From positions 1-12,512 of the forward strand of contig NW_014011957.1 of the NCBI RefSeq assembly GCF_000611645.1: a stretch of DNA of 12,512 bases. The letters run 5' to 3'. The position numbers were made by a program, and so were the translations under genes. This DNA is from Monoraphidium neglectum. Taxonomy: Eukaryota > Chlorophyta > Chlorophyceae > Sphaeropleales > Selenastraceae. Below the pieces are notes generated by a model. The model saw nothing but the letters and a program-made list of their open reading frames with translations, searched no databases and was not told the origin of the DNA. Positions 1-12,512 of this stretch are shown one piece after another; position 1 is the first letter of the stretch, and every line of letters begins with the position of its first letter.

Positions 1-31
1 GGGGTGGGGAGGATTGGGGTGATGGTTGGGG
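1..31 (+). other. G-run cluster at left edge
   Basis: Four GGGG runs (1-4, 6-9, 16-19, 28-31) with loops of 1, 6 and 8 nt on the strand opposite the SNF2 transcript, in intron 18. The transcript is correspondingly C-rich, which could be the pyrimidine tract of an acceptor just off the window. Confidence 0.5.
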
Positions 32-168
32 ATGGCAGGTAGGTGGGTTGTGGCTGATACGGAATAAATAATCAGATGTTGTACTCAAAATCGGTGTTCA
101 TCTTCTTGAAGGATTCCAGGGATCCCAACGACAGTCAAATGCTGAGCAGCAAGGCCTCCTTGCACCCG

Positions 169-194
169 CACAGGGAAGTGTCACAGGGAAGTGT
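169..194. repeat. Perfect 13-bp tandem duplication
   Basis: The unit CACAGGGAAGTGT occurs twice with no spacer (169-181 and 182-194). It lies in SNF2 intron 18 and looks like a recent replication-slippage duplication. Confidence 0.95.
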
Positions 195-252
195 CACGGC
201 TTTCTCCTGCCTCACACCCCACTCAGCCATGCGCTAAAAAAACACCCCAAAT

Positions 253-276
253 CACACACACACACACACACACACA
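253..276. repeat. (CA)12 microsatellite
   Basis: Perfect CA dinucleotide run on the plus strand, GT on the transcribed sense of the SNF2 gene, inside intron 18. Confidence 0.97.
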
Positions 277-392
277 TGCGTGCGCACGTGGCGCACCCAT
301 TCATACATCACTCGGGCCGGCAGCCCCGGAAACTACCTTTTCACCCCTCCTTACCCCCAGGCCCCCAGTGCGCGCTGTCCAGGCGGGCTCAC

Positions 393-807
393 TCGTGCCC
401 CGCCAGCCCCATGTAATCCTCTAGGATGTCTAGCATCATCTTGAACTGGCTGAACACCACCACGCGGTGGCCGGCCCCCTTGAGGCGCGCCAGCAGGCGG
501 TGCAGCACGGCGAGCTTGCCTGGGGGTTGGGGGTGCAGGGGTGCGGGGGTGCGAGGATCGAGCGCGATCAGGCTGTCATCGGCGCCACATGATGAGATTC
601 TTGCAGCATCGCTCCGTCAACAACGCTGGAAAAGCATGATGTAATGTAATGCAATGCACTGTTCCTTAAGCCACAAAGCACCGGAGCGGGGCGGAACAGG
701 CAGACGCCCGCAGCCGCTGCTGCCACTTGCCCTGTGCCGAGCGACCTGTCCTCCCCGCCTATGAGCCCTGCAGCTTTCATACACGACAAACAAAAAAAAA
801 CTCAGAT

Positions 808-859
<52 letters not shown>

Positions 860-1166
860 ACTCACACACACTCACACAGAGATAGACACTCTCATTCACA
901 CGCTCTCCCTCTTGGAATCACACCAACGCACGCAAGCGAGCAAGCGCCCCTCCCCCTCACCCGACGCGTCCAGCATCTCCTGCAGGGTGGCCGTCCCCTC
1001 TCCCCTGGGCTCGCTGTCCGGCATCATGAAGGGGTGGTTGACCACCTTGCGCAGCTGCATTATGAGGTTCAGCAGCCGCTGCCAGGACGAACCCGACCCC
1101 GCCAGCGCCGGCCCCGCCGCCTGGCCCTGCTGCTCCTGTGCCTCCTCCTGCTCCTCCTCCTGCCGC

Positions 1167-1223
<57 letters not shown>

Positions 1224-2461
1224 GCCTGCCCTGGGCCCTGCCTGCCGCCCGCTAAGCTCGCCTCCAGGGCGGCGAGCGCCTCGTAATTGCGCAGCAGCAG
1301 CCTGCGGGGGCAGTGGCGGCACCAGCCAGGGACAAGAGAGAGCGCGGTACGTGAGGCATGGTCGGTGGCCCCCATAAAGCACACAAGGGGCACAGTTCAA
1401 GACCAGAGATGCACCGTGGGTGCGGCTGTGCAGTGCTCATGGAGGTCTGGATTGGCAGCGCGGTCCGAGACAGCGGTTGGGTGCGTGCTTGGCAGACACC
1501 CATGTGCTCTGTCGAGCAGGGGCCCCAACAAAGCCTGGGACGCTGCAGAATGCAGCACCTGTCCGCCCCTCGCTGCACACCTGCAGTGCGTTTTGGGAAC
1601 ACAAAGGGGTGCCCTTTCCAGATGCCTGGCCGGCATGAGCTCACCTCCTGTACCAGAAGGTCTGCTGCGCGCTGAGGGGCACCGCGATGCGCGTCTCGAT
1701 TTTGGGGGGCAGGCTGACCTCCACCTCTGGCGGCCGGCAGCGGTCCAGGGTTTGGGTCGAGCAAGAGGGGCGAGGGTGGTTTGAAAGGCGAGGAGGCGAG
1801 GTGGGGCTTGGATGATGCGACAGCGAGGGGAGCTGGTGCTGCGGGCGCTTGGCGTTGATTGAGGTGCCCGCTGTGTGGGTGTTGTGTGGCATGAGCACAG
1901 GAGCGGACGAGAACGCCAGAGTCATGTCACTGAAGTCAGATGGTCACTACAGGGTCGCGGCTGGCCGCGCGAGCGCGCACCTGTCTTGAGGCGGCGCAGG
2001 CAGAAGGGGCGCAGCAGGTAGTGCGCAGCAGTGAGCGCCTCTTGGTCCACCTGTGCAGAAGTGAGATGATGCAAGGGGGGATGAGCAGTCGTACACAAAA
2101 TGACACCACTCAACACCAAATGTTGAGGACCACACGCCGAAGCGCCCCTGCCAGAAGCCCGGACGTCGGCTGCAGGACCCGATCCAGCCGCAGTCGGCTC
2201 TGATTCCCATCGACGGTAGCCCAGCCAGTCACAGCTGCGCCCCATCGCCCCGCCCGCCCCGCCCCTGCCCTTGAAATGCCGTGTGCAGACCTGGCCTTTG
2301 CCCAGGTTGAAGGCGACCTCAAAGGGGGCGCGCGTGGTGAAGACGTCTGGGTGCAGCAGAGACAGCAGACCGTGCAACTCCACCATGTTGTTCTGTAGGG
2401 GGGTGCCTGTTGATGTGGCGTGTGAGTGGGTTGGTGCGCGTCTGTGCAACACAACGGTAGG

Positions 2462-2554
<93 letters not shown>

Positions 2555-4578
2555 GTTTGCGTGATGATGTGTACATTTGCCGGCACTCGCAAGTGGGTGC
2601 AGGATGCGCGCCTGCGCAGGTCATGTTTGGAGCGTGGGGAGGTGGTTAGGCGGACTACTGGGGCCCAAGGTTGAGACCTGCAACGGCCACGTCAAGCGGC
2701 AGGGTTGATGCTTCTGATCCCCCTCCCGAGCCAGCCCCTTGGATCCAGAGCCGCGTCCGCACCTGTCAGGAGCAGGATGTTGCCGCGCTGCACGCGCCTG
2801 AGCGCCGCCGCTGTCAGCGTGTCGACGTTGCGCACGCGGTGGCCTGCCGTCCGGGGGTTGCATCAAGCGTAAAGCTCGTACATGGGCGGACACTTGGCGG
2901 GCGTGCTGCAGGCAGGCTCTGCTGCGGCAGCTGCCAGCAACGACCCTCGCAGCAGGTCGGGTGCGCAGACAATAGCCACACACAGACACCAGACAGCCTG
3001 GCACAGGCACCCCACCTTCGTCCAGCACCAGGTAGCGCCACGTCTGAGAGTATAAGGGGCCAGGCGGCGCATGTTGCGTGCGCGAGGGCTCAAAGGTTTT
3101 GGGCCAAACTGCACGCTACGCAACCAAGGCCTGAGGATGCAGGCAAGCAGACCCTGCCTTTGCGGCGGTTGATGGTGGTCTGAACAGTTCCGGAACGCGC
3201 TGACGCGTACACCCGCACACCCTGTTGCCCTGGGTCATATCCTGGGACCTTTCTAGCCTGGGGGTATTGTCACCAAGAGCGGGGATCACCCACCACAGTG
3301 GTCTGTATGGGCCGGCCAAAGTCGACGCTGGTGACCATCTCGTACGTGGTGACGGCCACGTCGAAGGTGTCAGGCCGTGCAAGCACCTGGTGGTGGGCAA
3401 GTGCGCGTGCTAATGTGCATGTGCGTGTATGTGTGCATATGTGTGTGGGTGCGCATGTGTGTGTTTGTGTGTGCGCGTGCCTGCGTGTGTGTGTGTGTGC
3501 GTGTGTGCATGTGTGTGTGGATGGGGAGATGTAGACAGCCTTCGCTGGAAGTATGATCATGTGAGCACAGCACCGACAAATTGCCCCATCAGGAAAGGCG
3601 GGGGCCGCACCAAATGCGCCACAGGGGCGCCCCACGCACCTCTTTGCGCAGCCTGGCGCGCTCAGCGGTGTCCGACGTGTGCAGCCGCACCACTCGCAGA
3701 TCAGGGCACCACCTTCAAGGGGTTGAGCGGCGACACACGCAGACAGGACGCTCGGTGGGCGACACGGGGGACCAATTACTAGTGGCTCATTACTAGTGGG
3801 CCTGCCAGCAGCAAATCTTTGGCCGTGCACAAGCAGAATCTCAGGATTTAAAGTCCCTGTTATGGCCCCCCAAACCCTGGGCCCACCTTGCCAGCTCCCC
3901 CATCCAGCTGGACATGACCGACAGGGGCACCACCACCAGGTGCGGCCCGGGCACCCGCAGGTTCCACTTGAGGTGGGCCAGGAACGCAATCGTCTGAAGG
4001 GTCTGTCGACCATTAGGTCCCCGCAACAGAGTGGGGTTGGGCGGGGTCTTGAGGTGAATTATTTGGTCAACATGTCGTATTAGCAACGCTTGAGCAAGAC
4101 CTGAGCAGGTCAACTGGACAGGAGCACCTGCTTTGGCCTGCCGTTCTGGGCGTGGCAGGCAACCATTTGGGCCGGACTAGGTGGCAAGCGGAGATTTCAA
4201 ATCATGCCGTCAGATCAGCGCCCGCACGCACCTTGCCGAGGCCCATCTCGTCTGCCAGGATGCAGTCGATGCCCCTGTGGTGCTGAGCCACCAGCCACGC
4301 CAGGCCCTCCAGCTGCGGACATGACGTGGGCGGTGGGGGGGTCGGGGGGTCGTATTGGGTGCCGTGGGGTCCTGGCCAGGCCGTTGGCAGGGGCTGGGCC
4401 CTGGGCTCGAAGTCGTGGCGCCTGCTGGCGGTAGGCGCTCCTGAAAAGGTGCAAGCCGACATGCTTGAAGCGCGTACGTATGCACGCATGTACGCGCAAG
4501 CACTTGAAGACGTACCTACACTGTCGTTTTGTGCCTCACGCACATGCACATACGCTCTGCCACATGCCAGTACGCGTG

Positions 4579-4621
<43 letters not shown>

Positions 4622-7308
4622 ATGAAAGCCCCTCGCCGCCTCGCTGAATCTCTCTACCTGTCTCTTCCTCTTTTGCTTTCTCAACATGGAGCCCCGCCAC
4701 CACGCACCCACCTGGTACTCCCGCAGCACCGCCTTGATCTGCGCCGGCTGCCCCTCCAACGGCTCAGGGTCCTTCGGCCGCGCCGGCAGCGCGGCCGCCG
4801 CGCGCTGCAGCGCCTCTGCGACTGCTGGTGCTATGAAGGGCCGCAGCTTGTCGAGGTAGGACGCGAGATAGGCGGTGCGCGCAGCCGCGAGGGCCTGCGC
4901 AAGCGGGGGTTGGAAGGGCGAGCGGTTTGGCACCAGAAGGTTTGCCAGCTAGTGGGTGGGCTCAGCGTGTGACAACTAACGGCCCCTGCAGGGCAGTCGC
5001 TGTTTGGGGCCTTCAGCCTCAGAATCAAGGGCGCCCCAAGGTCACAGGCTCGCCTACCTGGGCCGACGCCTTGACACCTGCGTTGTGCGCGCGGCGCGCT
5101 GCTTGCGCCTCCCCGACCTCCTTGTCCTGCGGTGCTTTTATGACTGGCTTGAGCTTTGGCTTCTGCTGTTGATGCGGCTTCCGAGGCGGCGGGGCGGTGG
5201 AGTAGCCTCGCTCTGTGTAGGGCTTGTCTGCGGTGGCGAAAGCAGCAGCACACGCGCGACGGTTGCAGTGGCAATTCAGATCACAAGACATGCGCTTGAC
5301 TGCTGCAGGAACCGCCTTGAAATGACACGCATTGCCTGCGGCGACCGGGTGACATATAACGTGCAAAAATGGTCACGTGACTCCGCTCCCCTCCTCGTGG
5401 CGGGCCTCTCCTCGAGCCCGGGGCGGCCCGTCCCTCGACCCATCTGAAAGCACCGACGCACCCCAGCCCCTCGTGCCCCAAGCCCCAGCCCCGGCCTCAC
5501 CTGTGAGCTCCTTGTCAAAGACAGACGGCTCCCCCCCCTCCAGGTTGTACAGGTTGTCTCGCAGCACCGGCACGCGCCCGACATACACCACGCGCGCCTT
5601 CGCTTCCCGCCCACTGCGCCGCGGCGGCGGCACCGGCGCGCCAGCTCGCCGCGGCGGGCGCCCCGCTGGCGCTGCCGCAGCCTTTGTGAGGGCGTCCTCC
5701 TCGTCCCGCCCTTCATGATCATCTTCATCCTTGCAGTGCTGCTGCTGCTGCTGCTGCTGCTGCTGCAAGTCCTCCTGCAGCTGCTCGTCTCCTTCCTCTT
5801 CCCCCTCCCCTGTTTGGTCCATTTCCTCATCGGCCTCGTCCAGACCCTGCTCCTCGTCCTTCACGTCCTGCTGCAGCAGCTGCGGCCCCGCCCCGCTCCG
5901 ACCCTGTGCATTCGCCGCGACCGCGTCCGAGCCGGCGGCGCCCTCCTCTTTCTTCAGGAGCACAGACGTGCCCAGCGACACCGACGCCGCGCTCTGGGAG
6001 GGCCGCGGGGCCCCGTAAGCGGGCTCGCAGGGCAGAGTGGCGGGGATGCCAAACTGCGCGGAAGTCAGTGATGGTGAGGGAGGTGCAGGGAAGGGTGTGG
6101 TCTGGTATGGCTTCGTGCGTGGCCAGGTTCCTTGCCTTCGTGCTGCTTTCAGGGGAGCTGCAGCGCACCTTACCAGGTGCATGCAATTCAGGCTTGCAGT
6201 GTCGCCCGAGCAACAGCGCTCACCGCAGCCTTGCGCAGGTGGGAGAGGCCGACTTCCTTGAGCAGCGCCTCTCCTGCCCTGCGGGCCTCAAAGCGGCCCC
6301 ACCCGTGCTGCAGGCCCCGCTCGTTGCCCTGAAGCTGCAGCGGCGGCGGCACCCAGGTGTAGGAGGGCCGCAGGTTGGAAAGGATCCGCACAAAGCTGTA
6401 GCTATGGCCGATGTCTGCGTTCGCACGGCATTTTGTCACAGTGGCACGGAGGGAAGGAGATGGACTGGTAAGCGTTGGTTGTGTGGGGGGTGTCGAATGT
6501 CCGGGCGGGCAACGCGTCATGCGGGTGCTTGCACCTGCATGGAGCTGCATGCGGCTAGTATGCATGTTGCACATGCGGCCGCGGCCGCGTGCGTGGAGCA
6601 TGACCCGACGCGCCTGGCATGTATACATGGACTCCGGCCACGGTCTTGCGCAGCACTACGCCCATCCACCACACGTCGTCCTGCAGCATCTCCACCGCCA
6701 TGCCCGCCTGGTGGCGTGACGCGCGCGGAGCGTATGGCTGATTGCTGTTGGCATCTGCTGGGGCTCCAGGCGGACGGGGCGCACATGCAAACGCGAATTC
6801 AAGCGGGCTCCGTGTCCCAAGGCTGCACCATGTATCCACCGGCTCTTTGCCGTGCCCTCTTGGGCCCCTGTCCTGACCTTAAGCTGGTCCCAGCTTGAGA
6901 ACTTGGCGGCAGCCGGCGGGGTGGGGCGCAGGCGCGCGGCCTCGACAAATTCGACCAGCTGCTCTCCAGTCTCCTCGTCCACGAACTGCAGTTGATTCCG
7001 TTTCAGGTTTGGATTGCACGCAACGCGCAGCGATCCTGTCATGTCACACCCAACGCTCAGCTGCTGCACACCAGGTGGGGTTGACACAGCGCGAGCAGGC
7101 ATGCAGCAACGGGCATTAGACGGAGCGCAGCAGCTAGTTGCGATCTGGCTGCTCGTAAAACAGACAGTACTCTCACGTGGTGGTACTCCATTATGACGCC
7201 ATTGCGCGCGGCGTCGACCTGCACGACCGTTCCTGTGAACCAACTGGCGGGAAACCCCTCCGTCTCAAGGCCTGCAGCCTCCACGAGCTGATTGACGGTA
7301 AACCTCAT
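393..7308 (-). CDS. Agenet-domain SNF2-family chromatin-remodelling ATPase, 18 exons, 3' end outside window
   Basis: Predicted nuclear DNA translocase that would use ATP to remodel nucleosomes. Exons on the minus strand: 7308-7177, 6985-6878, 6707-6605, 6414-6224, 6053-5501, 5227-5058, 4894-4712, 4312-4232, 4002-3887, 3712-3640, 3386-3294, 3043-3016, 2843-2763, 2406-2291, 2050-1981, 1726-1645, 1301-961, 519-393. All phases agree; exon 3's 3' end (weak donor GTCATG) is the least sure. The start is the first in-frame ATG. About 883 residues are visible: tandem Agenet (1-135), unassigned (136-240), acidic Gln-rich linker (241-298), basic Pro/Arg patch (about 308-328), a conserved-looking segment (329-375), then the SNF2 motor from LREYQ (476-480). 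Motor motifs: GLGKT (K507), DEGH (609-612), GTPLQNN (638-644), QLRK..NHP (to 817), FSQ and LDILEDYM. Domain 2 motifs IV-VI lie off the left edge. The motor recalls ISWI, CHD1L and an orphan fungal/algal SNF2 group (WYRRLL, MPDSEP); subfamily is uncertain. Introns 7, 10, 13, 17 and 18 carry microsatellites; intron 16 (1644-1302) shows nothing notable. Confidence 0.9.
809..878. repeat. (CA)22 microsatellite with imperfect extension
   Basis: Perfect CA run at 809-852, followed by CTCACACA-type imperfect units to about 878. It sits in SNF2 intron 17 (960-520) and reads as GT repeats in the pre-mRNA. Confidence 0.97.
1169..1222 (-). repeat. In-frame (CAG)18 polyglutamine tract
   Basis: Eighteen uninterrupted CAG codons in exon 17 of the SNF2 gene encode Gln 754-771. 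They sit between WYRRLLLRNY and LLNLIMQLRK, inside the motor region. Pure codon use indicates slippage-prone, recently expanded sequence. The reverse strand reads as poly-Leu, Ala or Cys and is not coding. Confidence 0.95.
2240..2270 (-). other. G-run cluster in SNF2 intron 14
   Basis: Six runs of three or more G on the transcript strand within 31 nt, starting about 20 nt after the donor at 2290. It could form an RNA quadruplex or act as an intronic G-run splicing enhancer. Composition is seen; function is inferred. Confidence 0.6.
2468..2552. repeat. Compound (AG)n(TG)21 microsatellite
   Basis: An AG tract at 2468-2510 (one imperfection near its end) abuts a perfect (TG)21 at 2511-2552. In SNF2 intron 13 (2762-2407) the transcript reads (CA)21 followed by a CT tract ending about 60 nt before the acceptor, so it may add pyrimidine content. 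Confidence 0.96.
3411..3522. repeat. Degenerate GT/GC-rich simple repeat
   Basis: Imperfect alternation of GTGT, GCGC and ATGT units over about 110 nt, purine-pyrimidine alternating almost throughout. It fills much of SNF2 intron 10 (3639-3387) close to the acceptor, and reads CA-rich in the transcript. Confidence 0.9.
3775..3799. repeat. 11-bp direct repeat pair
   Basis: ATTACTAGTGG occurs at 3775-3785 and 3789-3799 with a 3-nt spacer, in SNF2 intron 9. It probably arose by a short duplication; no function is apparent. Confidence 0.93.
4335..4369 (+). other. G-run cluster in SNF2 intron 7
   Basis: Runs of 7, 6, 3 and 4 G with loops of 2, 7 and 6 nt on the strand opposite the transcript, just upstream (in transcript sense) of the exon 8 acceptor, so the pre-mRNA is C-rich there and may serve as the pyrimidine tract. 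Confidence 0.55.
4585..4618. repeat. (CA)17 microsatellite
   Basis: Perfect CA run on the plus strand, flanked by a GCGCGC stretch, inside SNF2 intron 7 (4711-4313); GT in transcript sense. Confidence 0.97.
5738..5766 (-). repeat. In-frame polyglutamine tract in acidic linker
   Basis: A CAG run in exon 5 of the SNF2 gene gives nine consecutive Gln (about residues 275-283), embedded in an Asp/Glu-rich linker between the Agenet pair and the motor. It is likely disordered. Confidence 0.93.
6224..7308 (-). other. Tandem Agenet (Tudor-like) module, exons 1-4 of the SNF2 gene
   Basis: Exons 1-2 encode a near-canonical first Agenet repeat (residues about 3-68). It has a VEA..LETEGFPASWF start, a TVV strand, a VIMEY strand, and the closing LVEFVEAARLRPTPP, matching the family pattern of VEV..EEGF..SWF, a central strand with Y, and L.E.V...RLRP.PP. 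Exons 3-4 encode the second repeat (about 75-135): WDQLKAGMAVEM, then DDVWWMGVV, VHVYMPG and LRPSYTW, matching the WWEGVV and LRP..W landmarks. Agenet domains belong to the Royal family and in plants often occur in pairs; some bind methylated histone tails or act as chromatin adaptors. The ligand cannot be read from sequence. Splice phases 0, 0, 1 and 0 keep the frame into exon 5 with no intervening stop, so the module is contiguous with the motor if the exon 3 to exon 4 junction is right. Confidence 0.85.
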
Positions 7309-8794: not shown

Positions 8795-10976
8795 CTAGTG
8801 CTGCTGCTGCTGGTGCTGCTGCTGCTGCAGTGCTCGCGGCGTGGCTGCTGCAGACGACGCTCCGCTGCTGCCGACGCGGCTGCTGCCAGGGGCGGACCCC
8901 ACGAACACCTCCACGTCAGGCAGGTAGAAGCTGCCGGGGCCTGCCGCGCCGCTGCTGCTGCCGCGGCTCGCCCTCGAGTGCGACAGCAGCGGCTCCCGCA
9001 CGTCCCCGTCGGCAATGCCCGCCGCCAGCCACGCGCCGCTGCCGTCGATGCTGCTCTCCAAGTCAGACTCGTCCTCCGCCGTCGCCCAGCCCGCCGCCAG
9101 CAGCCGCTCGAGCGCGCCGGGCGGCAGCGTCAGCGGCAGGTCCGCGTAGCTGCTGAGCGCCTTCCTGTCGGCCACGTCGACGCCGGTGTCGCCGAGCGTC
9201 AAGAGCGCGTCCTCGGCCACCTGGTACGGCAGCCGCTCCGGCCGCTCCGCCAGCGCGCGCAGCACGTACACGACCCGCCGCTGCGCCGCCGCCGACGCGC
9301 GCTTGCCGTCGGGGCCGAGCAGGCGCTTGTGGGGCGGATACAAGATGTAGTGCTGAGTCATGAAGACGACGTCAAACCCGATGGAGATGACGGCGAGGCC
9401 GAGCTTCACCGGGTTGGCGGTGATTGGGTCCCAGTTGCCGGTGACGTGGCAGGTGAGCAGCTGCTGTCCCAGAGACAGGATGCCTCCCATGAAGTCCAGC
9501 AGGATGTTGAGGATCGACCAGCCCTGGGTGCTGCGGCGGCGCCAGTTGTACGTGGCCTGCGGCGGCGGCGGTGAGGGTCAGATACTGTCAACTTATAGGG
9601 AAATGCAAGGTGCGCACACGTGTGGCGAGGGCATAAGGCGACACACCACGCAACGCACATGAGGGCAATACCGCATCTCCTCTCTGTACTACCCCTCTTT
9701 GCAACCAAACGACCAGGTCACGACCCAGCAGTCCCAAAGCACTAAACATGGCTTGTTCAATCAGCAGCAAATCGGGCCCGAACCTGAGGGATGTACTTCA
9801 GCAGCGTCACCACCATCTTGATGTACGACAGGAAGTACAGCCACAGCACCCACTCCAGCCAGGGCTCCAGCCACGCGCGCACAGACAGCAGCCCATGCTC
9901 AAACAGCCGCTGCTTGCCGGCAATCGCCGCGCCGTACACGCCGGCGGCTGTTGCTGCAGCTGCGATGCCGGTCAGGACGGCGGGGTGGACGCGCTGCTTG
10001 CCGCGCGGGTAGATGATGCACTGGGCGGCGGTGACCAGGGTCACGATCAGCGCGTGGACCGCAAAAACTACGTCATTGTACTCCACGGCAAACTGTTGAC
10101 AAAGATATGGTAAGTGGATGTGTGGCGAGCGTGTCGCTCTCAGTACGCACTCCGGGCAGCAGTGCAGCGGCGCGCCCAGAGGGCGAGTGGGCGTGGAAAT
10201 GACTGGCCCTGCAACGCAGCCGCGGGCAAGTAAGCACACCCCGCAGGAGCGCATGTACACCTGGCACATGGAAATGCCGCACACACTGCCCACCTGGCAG
10301 AAGTCGGTTGTCCCGACCGCCAGCACGTCGGCCGCCCGGGGCCCTGCACCCAGGAACGCTGCCTTGACGCCCTCGTGCTTTGCGGGGGGGCACTCAAAGA
10401 CAGTGTAAATGACAACATTGAACGTCGAGTAGGCGACCCATCCCAGGAGGTTGAGTGCCAGGTAGTCGAAGGACTGCGGGAGGGGGCGGGTGCCGACAGG
10501 GCGGGTGAGCACGGGGTGATGAACGCCCTGACCGGGCGCAGCCGGCCGCCTCAGCGATGCGACTGTACGAGGCAGCTGCGACCGCATCGTGCATCTGCAG
10601 TGGCCGCGGCAGCCACTCACGAGTCCAGTGACATCCTTGCGTCTGAAATTGAGTATGACTTGGGGCCTGCAAAGTGCATGTGTATGGTGCATGGGGGTGG
10701 GCACATGCACAGAGCGCAGACATGACGGCGCCGCCTGATTTGGGGGCAGCAAGCACTGCGCTTGTCCCCGCCATAAAATTGAAATTCTCACCAAAACGAT
10801 AAACTCCAAGCGATGGTATAGGTCCAACCCGCTCCGGCTTGAATCGAAGCGACCCATCTATCCGATATCTTGGGGTTCGGCCAAGCCCATCCAAGCAAAG
10901 CTCCAGAGACTGCGATAGCTGTCAAAAGTACCCACACAGGGACTCGCCAGCCCTGCGGACTGGAAGGTGCAAACAT
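8795..10976 (-). CDS. CTNS: Cystinosin-like PQ-loop cystine/H+ symporter, five exons, complete
   Basis: Membrane carrier expected to export cystine with protons from the vacuole/lysosome to the cytosol. Exons: 10976-10792, 10666-10621, 10473-10294, 10092-9784, 9556-8795 (stop TAG at 8797-8795); phases 2, 0, 0, 0 all fit; predicted 493 residues. Family landmarks: first PQ motif (SFWPQVILNFRRK, P63-Q64), SFDYLALNL (D80), EYNDVVFAVHA (N143-D144), SYIKMVVTLLKYIPQ (K229, second PQ at 239-240), NWRRRSTQGWSILN, LLDFMGG (D261, the position of the proton-coupling Asp of human cystinosin) and IGFDVVFMTQHYILY. Seven membrane spans are expected. The large glycosylated luminal N-terminus of the human protein is absent, as in plants; a hydrophobic stretch (about 13-33) sits there instead. 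A soluble tail of about 175 residues follows the last span, with an REPLL patch (427-431) and a QQQQHQQQQH end. An in-frame upstream ATG at 11132 would add 52 unlikely residues; the GCGCCATG context favours 10976. Confidence 0.93.
8798..8828 (-). repeat. Gln/His low-complexity C-terminus of cystinosin
   Basis: CAG/CAC codons encode QQQQHQQQQH as the last residues before the stop. This is a third coding CAG tract, in a different gene from the other two. Confidence 0.92.
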
Positions 10977-11393
10977 GGCGCGCAGCTGTGAATGACGTAT
11001 AACTGGCCCGTGAATTTCAGATAAGATATCTGATACGTCGTGATGTATTGTTGCAACGTGCGTCCGGGGATTTCGACCAGCATTCCACACCTGATGCCTT
11101 TCTCCCCGCCACAGAGTGCGACCTCTCGTCATGGCACGTCCTCATCGCCGCTACCCCCTGGGATTTGAGGCTGTGCTGGCCCATGCACTTTGTCAAGTGT
11201 TGAATTGTGCTCAGGACCTTGAGCAAATTGCATAATCTGCATGGCGCAGCTGTGGTGCTAATAGAGAGCATGTGCTGCAGCCACCCCCCAGGACCATTAC
11301 TACGCTCCCCCTGCCACATGGGTGGCGGCGCATGGTAGACCAAGCCACGTTCCTGCGCCAAGCACCGGGGAAAAACACGCTGTCATATGTTAC
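10977..11393. other. Intergenic stretch between Tic22-like stop and cystinosin start
   Basis: About 420 nt separate the two co-oriented genes. It should contain the Tic22-like 3' UTR and the cystinosin promoter/5' UTR. It is less GC-rich than the surrounding exons. I found no TGTAA on the minus strand and no convincing TATA box. An open frame continues upstream from the cystinosin ATG to 11132 without homology to the family. Confidence 0.6.
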
Positions 11394-12486
11394 TCATTTG
11401 CCTTTCTTCCCGCCCTTGGCGGCTGCGACGGGCGCCTGCACCACCGCGCTGCTCTCGCCGCTGCTGGCCGCTGACTGCAGCAGGCCGCCCGCCTGCGGGC
11501 CCGGCGACAGCAGACAGGCGCGCAGGCATTGTTAGATGCGGCGTGCACCAGAAGGTTGCATCCTGGCACCTTCAGCCAAGGTGAAGTGCCAGGCAGCAGT
11601 TTACCGCGCCCCATTCCAGTATGCGATCACCCCTGAGTAGCTGATGTCACTCCGGTATCACCCGCGCCCACAACCCCCGCTGCGCATGCATCGGCACTCC
11701 TAGTGCAACTCACCACGAACATGACCTGACTCCAGGCTGAGAGCTCGTCCCCCTCGCTGGCAGACATGCGCATCAGCACCTCCTCAAAGCTGCCCACCTG
11801 CGGTGCGGGTAGGCAGGCAGCGACGCCGCGCCGCCGCGCGCGTTCAGGCGCCCGCACGCTCGCGGCCGCGTGCGTTTGTATGTGCGGGCGTGTGCGCACG
11901 CGTTCGAAGCGCGTGCGCACATATGACGACAATGTGAGCCCATACGGCGACCGCAGGGCTCCCGATCCCGCAACGGCTCTCGTGACCCCGAAAAAAACCG
12001 GCCGCACCTCGATCTTGGGCAGCGGCGCGGCCTCTATGCTGGCCGCCCGCTCCAGCGCGGAGTCCAGCGCGCCGCGCGCCTTGGACGCGCGCGACTCCAG
12101 CACCACCTTGTCGCGCCCCTTGGCGGCGGCCGCCGCGTTCATCGCCTCCTGATACTCCTGGCAGCCGCAAGGATGAGATGACGCGCAAACGCAGCAGCGG
12201 CTTACCAGTCAGGCGATCTGACGAGCACGATTCAGCACTGAGGCCATCGCATCGTCGCACCAGCCACTCTCGCACCAGCCGTGTGACCGCTCATCCCTTC
12301 CGGCTGCAGCGCGCCCGCCGAGCGCGGCCCGCCCCAGCGCGCAGCAACCCCGAACCCCCCGCGCGCCTGCTCATGCTTCGCGGCCTCGCTGCGCGCCGCC
12401 CCTATGGCGGCCGAGTTGCGCTGCCGGTGCGCGCCCTGCACCGCCACGTCCAGGTCCTCCTTGCACAGGAACAGCGGCACGTATTG
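11394..12486 (-). CDS. TIC22: Tic22-like plastid protein-import factor, 3' exons only
   Basis: Tic22 proteins act in the chloroplast intermembrane space as a chaperone-like link between TOC and TIC; cyanobacterial relatives are periplasmic. Visible exons: 12486 to about 12268 (3' end ambiguous), 12157-12008, 11797-11714, 11492-11394 (stop TGA at 11396-11394). Supporting motifs are YVPLFLCKEDLDVAV in the first visible exon and VGSFEEVLMRM followed by SAWSQVMFV in the third, which match the C-terminal VP.F..KEDL..A and VGSLE.V...M...W..V.F pattern of the family. Between them lies an Ala/Lys/Glu-rich, probably helical segment. The last exon encodes a short tail ending KGGKKGK. For the first visible exon's 3' end, phase-0 choices are a GTGGCT donor after 12268, a GTTGCT donor after 12349, or a GC donor after 12369; none is a good consensus. 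The transit peptide and N-terminal half lie to the right of the window. Family call from the C-terminal motifs only. Confidence 0.7.
11891..11921. repeat. Perfect 12-bp inverted repeat (hairpin)
   Basis: The arm TGTGCGCACGCG (11891-11902) is perfectly complementary to 11910-11921 with a 7-nt loop that contains TTCGAA. It lies in the Tic22-like intron between 12008 and 11797. The arms are very GC-rich and would form a stable stem in RNA or a cruciform in DNA. Confidence 0.95.
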
Positions 12487-12491
12487 CTGCG

Positions 12492-12512
12492 GTGTGTGTG
12501 TGTGTGTGTGTG
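12492..12512. repeat. Dinucleotide TG run at window edge
   Basis: A TG run starts at 12492 and continues off the right edge. In the sense of the Tic22-like gene it is a CA repeat ending immediately before the CCGCAG acceptor of the first visible exon, where a pyrimidine tract would normally be. Confidence 0.95.

Follow-up and report, generated by a model that had tools for sequence, protein, structure and literature searches.

The 12,512-base window analyzed here is a complete contig (C1364) of the green alga Monoraphidium neglectum, the genome of which was searched as 34.6 Mb in 1,632 contigs. Three genes were recognized in the window, all on the minus strand: a gene that joins a tandem Agenet module to an SNF2 motor, a PQ-loop gene and a Tic22-like fragment. 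The first of these is our subject. Read on the minus strand in three frames, it resolves into 18 exons, from 7308 to 393, that join without an in-frame stop, and its 17 introns of 163 to 441 bases are all GT-AG. The initial annotation had linked the Agenet exons (1-4) to the SNF2 exons (7-18) in frame through exons 5 and 6, and the stop-free run of 18 exons agrees with this, although the in-frame joining is partly by construction because we picked the exon boundaries by eye to hold the frame and to fit relatives. Introns 2, 7, 12 and 14 (4 of 17) are stop-free when read through, and their calls therefore rest on relatives and splice signals. Setting the acceptor of exon 9 at 4002 instead of 3993, a shift of nine bases, restored the sequence GKTLQT. 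The resulting model has 882 codons plus two bases, equal in length to the 883 residues annotated initially, and is laid out as follows.

7308-7177, 6985-6878 and 6707-6605, minus strand: exons 1-3, first Agenet barrel plus the larger part of the second (Pfam Agenet, residues 15-68)
6224..6414, minus strand: exon 4, remainder of the second Agenet barrel plus the linker that follows (alignment to 7yt9, residues 10-140)
5501..6053, minus strand: exon 5, acidic, Gln-rich linker followed by the greater part of motif 1 (RVVYVGRVPVLRDNLYNLEGGEPSVFDKEL)
5058..5227, minus strand: exon 6, basic linker leading to the motor (exon model)
4894-4712, 4312-4232, 4002-3887 and 3712-3640, minus strand: exons 7-10, ISWI-like SNF2 domain
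3386-3294, 3043-3016, 2843-2763 and 2406-2291, minus strand: exons 11-14, ISWI-like SNF2 domain
2050-1981, 1726-1645, 1301-961 and 519-393, minus strand: exons 15-18, SNF2 domain and the start of Helicase_C (exons 7-18 taken together)
1..392, minus strand: start of an intron that leaves the contig, with a phase-2 donor, GTGAGC, from 392; the contig begins at position 1

The model does not close at its last exon. The supposed stop at 393 (GAG TGA) is a phase-2 splice donor, GGGGCACGA followed directly by GTGAGC, and this donor, together with the contig edge, rules out a gene end at that point. Because a donor starts at 392, Helicase_C is broken and the window is a whole contig, the gene must run off the contig. 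The 883 residues initially taken as the whole product are thus incomplete, as relatives continue with the remainder of Helicase_C and a PHD finger.

At the N-terminus, two Agenet repeats had been annotated in exons 1-4, and both are upheld; the Agenet fold is known to bind histone tails. The Pfam Agenet profile (PF05641) matches residues 15-68 of the 882-residue model with 42.2 bits (cut-off 27; E 1.2e-10), or with E 1.8e-12 when the N-terminal piece is scanned alone. The second repeat gave no separate Pfam match in the 882-residue model; it is revealed by phmmer, in which residues 10-140 align with the solved tandem Agenet structure 7yt9 (E 3.7e-11), and by the AlphaFold2 model of the closest relative, P0038, a protein with the source name of a transcriptome open reading frame. 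This model (19 sequences) has a mean predicted local distance difference test score (pLDDT) of 67.2, rising to about 92 across the first 130 residues, where two barrels are predicted. By structure comparison, which barely covered regions beyond residues 1-138, it resembles ADCP1, AGDP1 and AGDP3. A curated profile and a predicted pair of barrels, as in the Agenet/Tudor (Royal) family, thus agree. A MORC2 chromo-like match inside the Agenet part remained below its cut-off (12.5 bits against 27). In the genome search, the Agenet part on C1364 was the only strong match of its kind; a further Agenet exon at C932:6304-6423, minus strand, scored 27.5 bits, barely above the Pfam cut-off.

The SNF2 ATPase annotated in exons 7-18 is likewise upheld, and both profiles named for checking the initial annotation found their match. 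PF00176 covers residues 479-818 of the whole model with 237.6 bits (E 2.1e-70), and the GKT and DExH signatures of the superfamily appear as DEMGLGKT at 501 and DEGH at 609. The remaining Pfam matches in the whole model are either below their cut-offs or due to an overlapping DEAD profile. Helicase_C reached 12.5 bits, under its cut-off, over profile positions 2-34 of 110 before the contig end interrupts it, and was not reported for the whole 882-residue model. Among solved chains, the motor is nearest to the ISWI type, with a best score of 282 bits versus 223 for CHD1 and 220 for DDM1. Among the eight top-scoring PDB sequences, five carry the name ISWI or ISW1, 5jxr is MtISWI by title, and two, including the top one, are incompletely named and presumably represent SMARCA5. 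The chromodomain profile (PF00385), expected in tandem in a CHD enzyme, had no match in the 882-residue model. Repeats at about 805-870, 1152-1220, 2468-2552, 3420-3520 and 4583-4620 of the window comprise intronic dinucleotide repeats and a CAG/Gln tract in exon 17, which sits inside the motor ahead of the QLRK motif.

The order Agenet-SNF2 recurs in other green algae. A protein database search, of which we analyzed the best 120 of 1,954 matches from a candidate set limited to 7,989, placed the SNF2 protein of the window closest to green-algal proteins among the matches listed. Precomputed annotation combined Agenet with SNF2 in six of these 120: Pleodorina starrii, Volvox reticuliferus, Volvox africanus, Chlamydomonas sp. 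UWO 241, Micractinium tetrahymenae and P0038. A local phmmer search with the first 178 residues of the window protein matched 10 of 135 sequences, adding Myrmecia bisecta, Elliptochloris bilobata and two metagenomic proteins, P0124 and P0127. The Myrmecia and Elliptochloris cases depend on this phmmer match, the Agenet of the former being below the Pfam cut-off and that of the latter unlisted by Pfam. Sanguina aurantia gave two partial matches to a profile made from the clear cases. Counting it as partial, the module is present in 8 of the 15 named chlorophyte members of the database search. The survey of chlorophytes proposed initially therefore returned the same domain order for P0038 and for the gene models of a further seven named species. 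The entries of the seven named species in which an N-terminal Agenet is clear are all annotated as hypothetical proteins. In P0124 and P0127, the tandem Agenet follows the PHD finger instead of preceding the motor (residues 1116-1253 and 1065-1173, respectively). Pfam found a complete Helicase_C in 12 of 13 relatives scanned, the exception being the truncated P0038, and a PHD finger above the cut-off in 10 of 13, with P0124 and P0127 below it. Neither HAND nor SLIDE was found by Pfam in the 13 relatives or in the scanned part of contig C1207, described below. Among the matches listed, other members have chromodomain, HMG, SANT or CW profiles. Taken together, these comparisons support a conserved putative remodeller whose motor is preceded by an Agenet pair and, in relatives and probably in the window gene too, followed by a PHD finger of the CHD4/NSD kind.

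A second feature unites the motor with a larger set of proteins. A stretch of approximately 40 residues, which reads RVVYVGRVPVLRDNLYNLEGGEPSVFDKEL in the window and runs from exon 5 into exon 6, reappears after the motor in relatives, with a consensus close to R-x-R-x(3)-V-x-G-x(2)-V-L-x(2)-N-x-Y-x-L-E-x-G-E-x-S-V-F. We built a profile from 22 copies, taken from 13 proteins and the window, and applied it at a domain E below 0.01; seed sequences match by construction. The copies in the window and on the probably linked contig C1207 are the following.

5501-5609 of the window, minus strand: copy in exon 5 (motif profile)
L043 360-450, on contig C1207: further copy (motif profile)

Motif 1 of the window covers residues 327-368, the last few in exon 6 (E 5.1e-20, the window being among the seeds). 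At least one match occurs in 100 of 136 sequences and two or more in 42, and a strict text pattern finds the motif in 50 of the 136. UWO 241 has a single copy above the threshold. At a domain E below 0.01, the motif is absent from the six HAND/SLIDE rows and from Haematococcus. It is present in Adiantum and Diphasiastrum, which we take to be a fern and a lycophyte, in a pelagophyte protein and in a Nitzschia protein. No Pfam family covers it above the cut-off in the scanned proteins. In an AlphaFold2 model of the Coccomyxa protein P0010, a hairpin and a helix appear at both copies, and since the pLDDT of these blocks is only 39-52, we claim no fold. Ahead of motif 1, the N-termini of the metagenomic P0125 and P0029 show by eye a Tudor-like stretch (W-F, D-G-D pattern). 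As judged from these profiles, the twin motif marks a wider group than the Agenet fusion.

In a quick maximum-likelihood tree of the motor, we used 104 of the 136 sequences, dropping 32 with incomplete motor coverage, including P0038; the coverage filter was not applied to the window sequence. The window falls in an 18-row clade (Shimodaira-Hasegawa-like approximate likelihood ratio test support 96) with all nine rows labelled for an N-terminal Agenet and nine rows not so labelled. Species names are attached to 14 of the 18 rows, and we take all these species to be green algae. For the unlabelled rows, loss, a late-starting gene model and repeated gain are not told apart. The six HAND/SLIDE rows fall within a nine-row clade (98), and the two rows with a C-terminal Agenet fall within a three-row clade (100). 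Because the deepest forks are weak (support 5), the tree does not show the twin-motif proteins as one clade.

The C-terminal half of the gene probably lies elsewhere in the assembly. Contig C1207 starts with exons for SRLVEVDGVPVLRSNNY..., followed by a PHD finger (E 7.1e-7), with the strand and contig-edge position expected for a continuation of C1364, and no other strong match of this kind turned up in the genome. Its PHD finger best matches CHD4 (3.8e-19), and its C-terminal zinc cluster aligns with NSD2 and NSD3 from query residue 11 or 12 to 88; we assume the alignment partner to be the domain called C5HCH. An intron of the PHD part (L043 1186-1396) has a GC donor (AG/GCGCGC). We compared six contigs with relatives by tblastn, and of the contigs retrieved C1207 alone was read closely. 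Weak Helicase_C matches on C72, C952, C860, C1069 and a few others in the genome searches were read as other SNF2 genes or chance. As no assembly sequence was found for the central part of the gene, we infer the join of C1364 to C1207, which would then encode the C-terminal half of the protein.

To relate the Agenet pair to a ligand, we compared it with land-plant readers. According to the excerpt of PMC6318295 used here, the H3K9me2 cage of ADCP1 consists of Y301, W306 and F323, while N302 and D303 lie at H3R2 and E233 and E272 at H3K4. For RsAGDP1, a similar cage is described, with two acidic residues facing H3K4 and an Asp facing H3R2 (PMC6208443). In the window, the cage places 301, 306 and 323 are occupied by Gln, Trp and Met, places 302 and 303 by Asp and Asp, and places 233 and 272 by Thr and Glu; half of the H3-facing residues are thus kept exactly, and the three-aromatic cage is incomplete. 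All nine chlorophyte N-terminal copies retain E272, D303 and W306. Position 301 is aromatic in one of them and position 323 in four, although the alignment near 323 is gapped and least certain there. The initial annotation had predicted a remodeller directed by a histone mark or by RNA. A tandem Agenet placed before the motor retains this idea in part; direction by a methyl mark loses weight, as the window has non-aromatic residues at two of the three positions of the ADCP1 cage, and following such a mark appears to be the weaker reading for the window protein.

Some points are established: the DNA shows the exons in fused order, other algae repeat this order, the closest relative has a predicted Agenet fold, and the motor carries GKT and DEGH. 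From there, we lean toward an ISWI-like motor tethered to the H3 tail from both sides. The product would slide nucleosomes through its DNA-translocating motor, the N-terminal Agenet module would bind the H3 tail on one side of it, and a C-terminal CHD4/NSD-like PHD finger would hold the tail on the other. With an incomplete aromatic cage, the Agenet cleft would keep the H3 N-terminus through the equivalents of D303 and E272 and would not need H3K9 methylation. Several observations weigh against this proposal. With E233 replaced by Thr and N302 by Asp, the H3-tail assignment rests on two acidic places, and position 233 is acidic in only five of the nine N-terminal copies. The gene models of 7 of the 15 named chlorophyte members (C. 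eustigma, Coccomyxa, Haematococcus, two Apatococcus, Symbiochloris and Cymbomonas) have no Agenet pair. Two genome searches did not find the missing Helicase_C exons in the assembly. Finally, when the Agenet part was searched by itself against the database, no match came back at E up to 1 among 3,500 candidates, which we take as a limit of the candidate step; the local phmmer search of 136 sequences retrieved P0038 with the Agenet part at E 1.8e-43.

An Agenet pair that reads methyl-lysine, H3K9me2 or another, through a rearranged ADCP1-like cage and sends the remodeller to silent chromatin is an unlikely alternative with some evidence behind it. The nearest solved structures are H3K9me2 readers, the full aromatic set occurs in one of the nine N-terminal copies (Pleodorina) and in the C-terminal copies of P0124 and P0127, of which P0127 is without D303, and the neighboring place 300 is aromatic in six of nine copies, the window not among them. 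Moreover, NtAGDP3 aligns a His with Tyr301 of ADCP1 and its structure 7yta is titled as an H3K9me2 complex, so an altered cage is compatible with methyl reading, a further point against methylation-independent holding. However, the window cage has only its Trp, and in the excerpted ADCP1 report, double cage mutants failed to bind H3K9me2 (PMC6318295). That the pair is no histone reader and instead binds protein or RNA as an adaptor, or acts on the motor as an autoinhibitory element, seems quite improbable, given the invariance of the D303 and E272 equivalents in all nine copies and the PHD finger of the relatives. A wrong merger of two adjacent genes, an Agenet protein and an SNF2 protein, would fit the gene models of several relatives that miss the Agenet part. 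Yet the join is repeated in other genomes' gene models and in P0038, where exon 6 falls within a single BLASTP alignment (residues 3-545, 44% identity), and motif 1, present throughout much of the family, lies in exon 5 in frame with the Agenet exons. We therefore rejected two separate genes as highly improbable and regard the fusion as real. Beyond the H3-tethered motor, we offer tentatively, as a possibility short of an expectation, an undescribed eukaryotic group of ISWI-like remodellers with the twin motif on both sides of the motor, a C-terminal PHD finger and no HAND-SLIDE. Royal modules would stand at either end, Agenet being N-terminal in core chlorophytes and C-terminal in two metagenomic proteins, and the chlorophyte pair would act as a methylation-independent H3-tail clamp.

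The other two genes of the window are listed here.

8795-10857, minus strand: multi-exon PQ-loop gene, presumably cystinosin-like (two open reading frames match Pfam PQ-loop, 7.9e-10 and 2.4e-7)
11390-12510, minus strand: partial Tic22-like gene for chloroplast import (24.5 bits against a cut-off of 23), severed by the other contig end

Rfam gave no match and was uninformative, as was a promoter and terminator scan, the consensus of which is bacterial.

The Agenet-SNF2 fusion is apparently undescribed. The initial annotation knew of no Agenet pair N-terminal to an SNF2 motor, and our open-access full-text search, with subscription papers and bioRxiv outside its scope, showed among the papers listed none on such a fusion by title or abstract start. 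The excerpt of PMC4634149 reports a single green-algal Agenet protein, in one of four species, a picture that the fusion enlarges. The host group includes genetically tractable algae (Volvox, Chlamydomonas). Compared with ADCP1/AGDP1 and AGDP3, the window keeps neither the three-aromatic cage nor E233, and these land-plant tandem Agenet proteins are not known to carry a motor. CHD3/CHD4 (Mi-2) share a PHD finger and an SNF2 motor with this family; however, CHD4 has chromodomains and its PHD fingers ahead of the motor, whereas in the relatives the PHD finger follows the motor and the N-terminal module is Agenet. The zinc cluster on C1207 resembles the PHD-C5HCH of NSD methyltransferases, but there is no SET domain, and in relatives the cluster is attached to a motor. 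The motor itself is closest to ISWI (SMARCA5, ISW1), yet an Agenet pair and a PHD finger replace HAND and SLIDE in the relatives scanned, and the HAND/SLIDE rows, none of which bears the twin motif, stand apart in the tree. ISWI remodellers are usually described as acting through HAND-SANT-SLIDE together with partner subunits; if a conserved enzyme of this kind brings along both a tandem Agenet and a PHD finger, histone-tail reading would be coupled to nucleosome sliding in a different way.

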